Shown: in pieces, positions 3,494 to 3,741 of the stretch
Layout of the letters: every line of letters starts with the position of its first letter
How positions within the stretch are numbered: position 1 is the stretch's first letter
Assembly (NCBI GenBank): GCA_023251775.1
Contig: JAHEYC010000032.1
Coordinates: 1 to 36,251, forward strand
Length of the DNA stretch: 36,251 nt
Direction of reading: 5' to 3'
Source: Sphingobacteriaceae bacterium
GTDB lineage: Bacteria > Bacteroidota > Bacteroidia > B-17B0 > Aurantibacillaceae
Program-made: the position numbers and the translations under genes
The notes under the pieces: model-generated
Told to the model about the DNA's origin: nothing
Seen by the model: the letters and a program-made list of their open reading frames with translations, nothing else
The model's database searches: none

Positions 3494-3532
3494 AAAAAAA
3501 TGCGGTGAGGGCGGGATTATTTCATGATCCCG
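3494..3532 (-). terminator. Weak putative terminator downstream of tRNA-Ser(GGA)
   Basis: On the minus strand a stem CGGGAT / ATCCCG (3532-3527 with 3517-3512) is followed, after about 11 bases, by seven T residues (3500-3494). The distance between stem and T-run is longer than ideal. One arm lies in the duplicated tRNA 3' segment. Confidence 0.4.
3502..3518 (-). repeat. Direct repeat of the tRNA-Ser(GGA) 3' end (att-like)
   Basis: The plus strand reads GCGGTGAGGGCGGGATT. The same 17 bases with a single difference (GCGGAGAGGGCGGGATT) form the 3' end of tRNA-Ser(GGA) at 3656-3672, exactly 154 bases away. Duplication of a tRNA 3' end is what site-specific integration into a tRNA gene leaves behind. 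The T-run that would end the tRNA transcript lies directly beyond this distal copy. Confidence 0.65.
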
Positions 3533-3655
3533 AATGTCTCCCAAGCAGTGGATCAAATCAGTATTCGCTGCGCTCATTGCCTGTTTTCGTTTCAGAAAAT
3601 TCAAGCGAGCTTGATTTTCTTTACTCAAACATGCAATTTCTGATTTGATCATCAA
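3519..3655 (-). mobile_element. Candidate miniature element inserted at the tRNA-Ser 3' end, foldable into one long hairpin
   Basis: This 137-base segment lies between the intact tRNA 3' end and the displaced copy of it. It contains a perfect 11-bp inverted repeat, GATCAAATCAG (3551-3561) and CTGATTTGATC (3640-3650). Nested inside are ATTGC/GCAAT (3576-3580 and 3633-3637) and a central stem TCAAGC/GCTTGA (about 3601-3614) flanked by GAAAA/TTTTC. The whole 3551-3650 interval can fold into one imperfect hairpin. An open minus-strand frame crosses it from the tRNA, but I do not regard that as a gene. It could be a passive miniature element, the remnant of a larger integrated element, or a small RNA processed from the tRNA transcript. 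Confidence 0.5.
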
Positions 3656-3656
3656 G

Positions 3657-3741
3657 CGGAGAGGGCGGGATTCGAACCCGCGGTACCTTTCGGTACACAC
3701 GCTTTCCAAGCGTGCTCGATCGACCACTCTGACACCTCTCC
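3657..3741 (-). tRNA. tRNA-Ser (anticodon GGA)
   Basis: The minus strand folds as a class II tRNA of 85 nt with a long variable arm (GTACCgaaaGGTAC). The acceptor stem is GGAGAGG/CCTCTCC with discriminator G. The anticodon loop TTGGAAA gives GGA, and the T-loop is TTCGAAT. CCA is not encoded. It reads UCC and UCU serine codons. A TATCTTAG sequence resembling a -7 box lies about 10 bases upstream (complement of about 3752-3759). Confidence 0.96.

Follow-up and report, generated by a model that had tools for sequence, protein, structure and literature searches.

Why do the last bases of a tRNA gene occur a second time 154 bp away, with a short foldback lying between the two copies? The question is raised by a locus in the window, the whole stretch of 36,251 nt from a Sphingobacteriaceae bacterium that was analysed (contig JAHEYC010000032.1). 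The minus strand carries, in succession, tRNA-Ser(TGA) (3846–3931, detected by ARAGORN), tRNA-Ser(GGA) (3741–3656, detected by ARAGORN and by Rfam with RF00005 at 50.4 bits), a 137-bp non-coding foldback (3519–3655), a 17-nt distal copy of the end of tRNA-Ser(GGA) (3502–3518) and a T-run (3494–3500), whose place beyond the distal copy agrees with the preliminary description of this DNA. The duplication reported there was also confirmed. The last 17 nt of the gene, GCGGAGAGGGCGGGATT (3656–3672, minus strand), form the proximal copy of a direct repeat and are found again at 3502–3518 as AATCCCGCCCTCACCGC with one change (16 of 17 identical), the sole other site with at most two mismatches on either strand of the 36-kb window. 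From base composition, a match with at most one mismatch in 200 nt is expected by chance about 7e-8 times; the tRNA-end repeat at this locus is not chance. The foldback between the copies is likewise real: its outer stem is formed by GATCAAATCAG (3640–3650) and CTGATTTGATC (3551–3561), both on the minus strand, which pair perfectly over 11 bp (a repeat listing gives 18-nt arms at 83%), and the palindrome TCAAGCTCGCTTGA (3601–3614, with no strand assigned) lies at the tip of a long arm.

A further feature had gone unnoticed. The end of the insert and the start of the distal copy together form a hairpin, GGGATCATGAAATAATCCC, that imitates the T-arm of the tRNA. This terminal hairpin, GGATCATGAAATAATCC (3514–3530, minus strand), proved to be the signature of a family. 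Where the foldback meets the distal copy, the sequence is CGGGATCATGAAATAATCCCG, and the T-arm of the tRNA reads CGGGTTCGAATCCCG; therefore the distal copy is a T-arm with a replaced loop, and the pattern at the end of the insert, GGATCA-hairpin-TAATCC, is the T-arm (GGTTCGAATCC) with its loop exchanged. The repeat of the tRNA 3′ end borders the insert on both sides, as in a tRNA-integrated island, and in this respect the earlier comparison with an attL/attR pair stood. The integrase reading attached to it is mere analogy, because the cassettes, as we call such inserts, are too short for an integrase and the hairpin-bearing T-loop of the downstream copy is altered. At 137 bp the window insert cannot hold an integrase, nor, by its open reading frame list, a GIY-YIG nuclease.

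A blastn search with the insert, a check proposed in the preliminary description, was productive in part. In the insert's own genome it found only the insert itself above noise, and in 36 genomes of the same genus it found no match; among 59 relatives it returned one distant match, L015, in one of the 23 genomes beyond the genus and in another family, again behind a tRNA with a repeated end. Of the 183 columns aligned between the window and L015, 127 are identical, and the similarity extends to part of the tRNA end. The related stretch of L015 starts behind a tRNA-Arg, missed by ARAGORN and found by Rfam, the end of which is repeated three times at 100 bp, and the part best shared with the window is GGATCAYGAARTAATCC. 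By sequence search alone the insert looked nearly unique; it was the terminal hairpin pattern that revealed a family.

A scan of 295 genomes of the class with the pattern GGATCAYGAARTAATCC gave 31 matches, spread over 14 genomes; the reversed pattern gave none. A second, looser pattern gave 18 matches in 14 of 395 genomes of the class (control 5), and a third, also looser, gave 18 matches in 7 of 395 genomes from the phylum (control 0), one of these genomes lying outside the class. The three scans together yielded 67 matches in 34 genomes, a few of which, e.g. L151 and L157, look like chance. The patterns miss tRNAs whose T-arm does not read AATCC, and it is largely because of them that the motif as such appears conserved. 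In one genome (G016), tRNA-end repeats behind tRNA-Leu(TAA) and tRNA-Leu(TAG) are preceded by GGGAA..AAGTCCC; here the boxes of the hairpin appear adjusted to a T-arm reading AGTCC, and such members would be missed by the patterns used. A 22-nt exact pattern had one match in public genome contigs, a 28-nt palindrome shared with Prevotella and with no tRNA within the 8 kb examined, and no match in viral contigs. In viral contigs GGATCAYGAARTAATCC had 15 matches, 3 of them with an unpaired pyrimidine/purine position; lacking the cassette architecture, they look like chance and were rejected as cassette carriers, and no viral carrier was found in these contigs with this single motif.

The matches lie behind tRNA genes. 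A tRNA or tmRNA was detected by ARAGORN within 1100 nt upstream on the same strand for 52 of the 66 motif matches inspected (one of the 31 GGATCAYGAARTAATCC matches had no locus and was left out); 4 of the 66 were at contig edges, and 10 had no tRNA by ARAGORN, three of which, the L015 array, have one by Rfam. In 36 of 37 first cassettes the motif starts 125–157 nt from the tRNA end, the exception being 348 nt. When seven rows from the third scan were added (eight were considered; L199 and L210 were left out), the 44 first cassettes spanned 110–157 nt plus the 348, with a median of 142 nt, and their hosts were tRNAs for Ser (24), Arg (14), Pro (4), Lys (1) and Gln (1). The window feature is an ordinary-sized member of what seems to be an undescribed family in Bacteroidota-like bacteria. 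Cargo of about this size is the rule, which is why the scar of a deleted integrase-borne island, offered earlier as a second explanation, is now disfavoured: such a scar would account for the direct repeat of the tRNA 3′ end, but the size and shape of the insert are those of the family (the tRNA-to-motif distance has a median of 142 nt in 44 cassettes), and no larger, integrase-bearing version occurred among the matches of the hairpin-pattern scans. We regard it as very improbable.

Several copies of this short non-coding element occur in the genome of the window itself, as is the case for miniature inverted-repeat transposable elements (MITEs). Among its 30 tRNA genes the motif is found behind Ser(GGA), Lys(TTT) and Gln(TTG), the last of these twice, and a fully paired variant behind His(GTG) makes the latter the fourth tRNA gene with a cassette-like end. 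This variant, GGATCGCGAGCGAAGCGAGCAATCC, lies 148 nt behind the tRNA-His(GTG) and has fuller pairing with no C.A mismatch. Elsewhere (L018), two tandem cassettes follow a tRNA-Ser of which just the final bases, CCTCTCTCTCCGC, are present; the remainder of the gene looks as though it had been lost.

Which features of the terminal hairpin are informative depends on what the patterns fixed. Its general form is NGGATCA-X..X′-TAATCCN′, and the constant boxes, being fixed by the patterns, are not evidence in themselves; nine same-genus loci found via the tRNA alone show the boxes too, eight with GGATCA and one with GGATCT. The first inner pair was complementary in 36 of 37 first cassettes (10.9 expected; 0 of 20,000 shuffles), and all four Watson–Crick types were seen (C-G 15, T-A 10, G-C 7 and A-T 4). 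The GGATCAYGAARTAATCC pattern fixed a pyrimidine and a purine at these positions, and in that scan 30 of 31 pair, the one non-pairing combination being T.G; the second and third scans are therefore the fairer test of pairing, and where their patterns left the base free the pair was complementary in 17 of 18 and 18 of 18 cases respectively. These covariation tests left aside 32 of 97 regex matches, which had no tRNA within 1500 nt, as well as the viral loci and L016. The outer base N agreed with the T-stem of the host tRNA in 38 of 44 cassettes (21.9 expected). Past the motif, 13 nt fitted the cassette's own tRNA better than other tRNAs (5.92 versus 4.33 of 13; 0 of 20,000 shuffles in 37 first cassettes). 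The match to the tRNA end reached at least 11 of 13 places in 9 of the 37 and fell below this in 28, one of which was cut by the contig end and one shifted by a base. Where a cassette looks fresh, the hairpin is followed by a repeat of the tRNA 3′ end, and the upstream gene is, by its sequence, intact.

The body of the cassettes is strongly structured. All 35 first cassettes that were folded (two of the 37 were left out as over 200 nt or containing N) folded far better than their shuffles, with a mean z of −6.17 over 60 shuffles each, and many form an outer stem from which three arms branch, the first of them often terminator-like and the second often ending in AAGCTTGCTTGA, the family consensus at the place of the central palindrome. 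For the window the earlier foldback claim was borne out more mildly: the region 3490–3655 gave z = −2.97 against dinucleotide shuffles (2 of 200 equally good), a weaker value than in other cassettes, and it has the outer stem and the long arm without a clear terminator arm. Such folding would fit a structured RNA or a trailer on the tRNA transcript that passed down by vertical descent and was retained for tRNA processing or regulation, as would the compensatory differences visible between homologues in the same genome. No Rfam family reached its gathering score at the cassettes, in the window and in 16 loci, and the matches at the window cassette were far below the cut-off (E up to 5), which speaks against a trailer, as does the presence of cassettes behind several tRNA species.

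The distribution of cassettes within the genus also weighs against a trailer. At tRNA-Ser(TGA), 6 of 29 same-genus loci were filled; the copy in the window's own genome is empty, and L100, among the other 23, is cut by its contig. At tRNA-Ser(GGA), 18 relatives gave four clearly filled loci (4/18), one degenerate-looking locus and 13 without the motif, among which L124 and L138 were cut short and L135 has a GIY-YIG gene there. These counts compare the same tRNAs in the genus rather than an empty site in an identical neighbourhood: in G033 and G011 the gene at 4022–5506 of the window adjoins tRNA-Ser(TGA), with tRNA-Ser(GGA) elsewhere (G011) or not beside it (G033), and in G036 the two tRNA genes occur together. 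The preliminary description had held that a unit conserved beside this tRNA in all relatives, with no empty sites and found nowhere else, would be a fixed trailer. Most same-genus tRNA-Ser loci were instead seen without a cassette, and cassettes are known at Ser, Arg, Pro, Lys and Gln tRNAs. We therefore consider a trailer unlikely. The idea of a miniature, non-autonomous, tRNA-targeting element gained support in turn, with like architecture 3′ of many tRNAs in many genomes and with empty sites. Mobility is favoured by the same comparison of filled and empty loci; movement as such was deduced from it rather than observed.

Next, we compared cassettes on different tRNAs of one genome, and two of six such pairs were clearly homologous (G016 and G040); the other four showed no clear homology, at 52–57% over the whole alignment. 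In G016 the similarity of the Ser(TGA) and Ser(GGA) cassettes starts directly past the tRNA end, and the distal copies match their respective host tRNAs. In the G040 pair the cassettes behind Arg(TCT) and Arg(ACG) have similar bodies, and the distal tRNA copies are not kept. Cassettes also occur in arrays, the sizes listed being 77–365 nt. L140 contains three complete units, which are of two types, and the beginning of another, and L125 two different units, so that, as in integrons, different cassettes share one anchor; in L159 two almost identical units precede an unrelated trailer.

These arrays bring in two further readings. A local mutational process, with tandem duplication and template switching at tRNA hairpins and with no mobile entity, would explain homogeneous arrays with periods of 97–122 nt and the long repeats that include a local terminator (L150 and the G198 array). 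The same ends, however, occur in genomes of many families, and the window and L015, from different families, share 127 of 183 columns while 36 same-genus genomes have no blastn match, which makes a purely local origin improbable. The other reading is integron-like: the terminal hairpin would be a folded single-stranded site comparable with attC, the T-arm an anchor comparable with attI, and a recombinase would insert circular cassettes at G|AATCC. The unit order AATCC..tRNA end..body..GGATCA-hairpin-T repeats in arrays, mixed types included, and the hairpin tip varies in sequence and length yet stays paired. Many terminal hairpins have GNA triloops closed by C-G, which are very stable in DNA. 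Such triloops were rejected as proof of single-stranded DNA, since the patterns fixed many of the loops and the arm loops are mixed, and the constant boxes and many loops, pattern-fixed as they are, give this reading no independent evidence. Moreover, the cassettes contain no integrase and at 77–365 nt are too short for one, and the Ser(TGA) and Ser(GGA) cassettes of G016 each keep their own tRNA end, which a circle carrying a tRNA end would not give. We regard recombination of this kind as possible and rather doubtful. Slightly less doubtful, and still well short of an even chance, is a broader version in which tRNA genes anchor integron-like arrays of tiny non-coding cassettes, the T-arm-mimicking hairpin is read in single-stranded form and GIY-YIG genes are one kind of cassette.

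Taken together, the results lead us to favour, with a probability of roughly 0.55, the reading that the window insert is a non-autonomous mobile cassette, ended by a hairpin and lodged in the T-arm of a tRNA gene, which was spread by homing-like repair with GIY-YIG nucleases as the likeliest helpers. The part of this reading concerning a mobile, non-autonomous tRNA cassette appears well supported by comparison between genomes. A cassette begins directly past the tRNA end and carries roughly 110–150 nt, folded as a closing stem that bears at most three arms; its end hairpin, NGGATCA-hairpin-TAATCCN′, copies the T-stem of the target and swaps the loop. A nuclease would cut tRNA genes in the T-arm, repair from a cassette-carrying donor would insert the cassette, and the downstream hairpin copy would be a decoy, no longer read as a target. 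The tandem arrays that we observed may have arisen by repeated insertion or by amplification at one tRNA. Small GIY-YIG nucleases are the likeliest source of the putative cut, because they are found at the same place, are associated with hairpin-disrupted tRNA copies and occur inside one array. Speaking against this mechanism, the T-arm of the upstream tRNA is still intact, and a nuclease that targets T-arms should cut it again.

GIY-YIG genes occur at Bacteroidota tRNAs, and this served as the lead to candidate helpers. A tRNA was close by in 6 of 21 small GIY-YIG loci, and some of these six contain partial tRNA copies broken by palindromes. The array behind tRNA-Ser(TGA) in G198 consists of four units of 177–178 nt and one of 373 nt that encodes an 87-aa GIY-YIG protein; this single array thus places a GIY-YIG unit among cassettes, in a SegB-like manner, and the hairpin at the end of this unit is a different one. 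G611 has an 82-aa GIY-YIG open reading frame approximately 0.7 kb behind a tmRNA, and a family hairpin follows it. The motif GGATCA..TAATCC was present in 0 of 30 GIY-YIG loci fetched, and in 3 of 14 cassette genomes (G097, G185 and G040, 98–100% complete) only long GIY-YIG proteins were listed. On both counts, derivation of all cassettes by deletion from a local GIY-YIG gene was not retained as a general rule, and help from GIY-YIG nucleases is thus something that we infer; help in trans was kept after the G198 array as likeliest but unproven. No open frame of at least 110 codons was found inside cassettes in 14 further stretches, a threshold above the 80–100 codons of such GIY-YIG genes. An autonomous version was considered in G255 (C351:3587–7655), where two family hairpins lie 3.7 kb apart with host-like genes between them; it was rejected, the open reading frames being host-like by eye and the second copy lying near the contig end.

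In phages, the GIY-YIG homing nuclease SegB is associated with tRNA genes, and a tRNA segment becomes amplified in tandem as a result of its cuts, in trans as well (PMC13096335); segB of T4 sits between tRNA genes (PMC2988022). SegB and the free-standing GIY-YIG nucleases of T-even phages thus resemble the system proposed here in their place beside tRNA genes, their action in trans and the break-induced tandem repeats. SegB, however, is a phage gene, described in the available portions of these two papers without hairpin-ended non-coding cassettes or T-arm decoys, and the window cassette encodes no protein. If GIY-YIG nucleases drive the cassettes, bacterial chromosomes would contain a cellular equivalent of SegB biology in phages, satellites and decoys included.

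The other systems that come to mind are compared here from general knowledge. MITEs are alike in being short, non-coding foldbacks at several sites of one genome, but have the terminal inverted repeats of a transposase, whereas the cassettes have a one-sided hairpin end, lie at tRNA T-arms, form arrays and are little conserved outside their ends. Integron attC cassettes share the arrays of units, the hairpin end, the constant boxes and the variable tip; the boxes of our cassettes differ from the attC consensus, and their cargo is short, non-coding and tRNA-anchored. In tRNA-integrated islands, with an att core from the T-loop to the 3′ end, the direct repeat likewise runs from the T-loop to the tRNA end and the tRNA is intact, but the cassettes differ in having no integrase, an altered downstream T-loop and a length of about 140 bp. 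No description of tRNA-nested hairpin cassettes was found in the literature searched, the coverage of which was poor for subscription papers and which is therefore weak evidence of novelty. On the favoured reading, an overlooked stretch behind a tRNA would belong to a type of miniature mobile DNA for which the T-arm serves as the address and which leaves the gene intact, and tRNA-end repeats need not mark integrase islands. If the folded hairpin is the substrate, a second cassette-array system would exist beside integrons; and if the integron-like array reading is true, it would represent a site-specific mobile system of a new kind.

Several loci show small GIY-YIG genes and altered tRNA copies side by side. 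In the genome of the window itself (G000:C64:24658–25200), tRNA-Met(CAT) is followed by a small GIY-YIG gene and then by a tRNA copy in which a palindrome has taken the place of the anticodon arm; the final 17 nt of the tRNA are repeated without a change. In G611, the tmRNA 3′ end is followed by about six imperfect repeats of approximately 120 bp ahead of the GIY-YIG frame and the hairpin. In G036, next to the cassette-bearing tRNA-Ser(TGA), a 5′ tRNA copy disrupted by a palindrome has a GIY-YIG gene behind it, the gene being located upstream of tRNA-Ser(GGA); a decoy can thus be a 5′ half as well.
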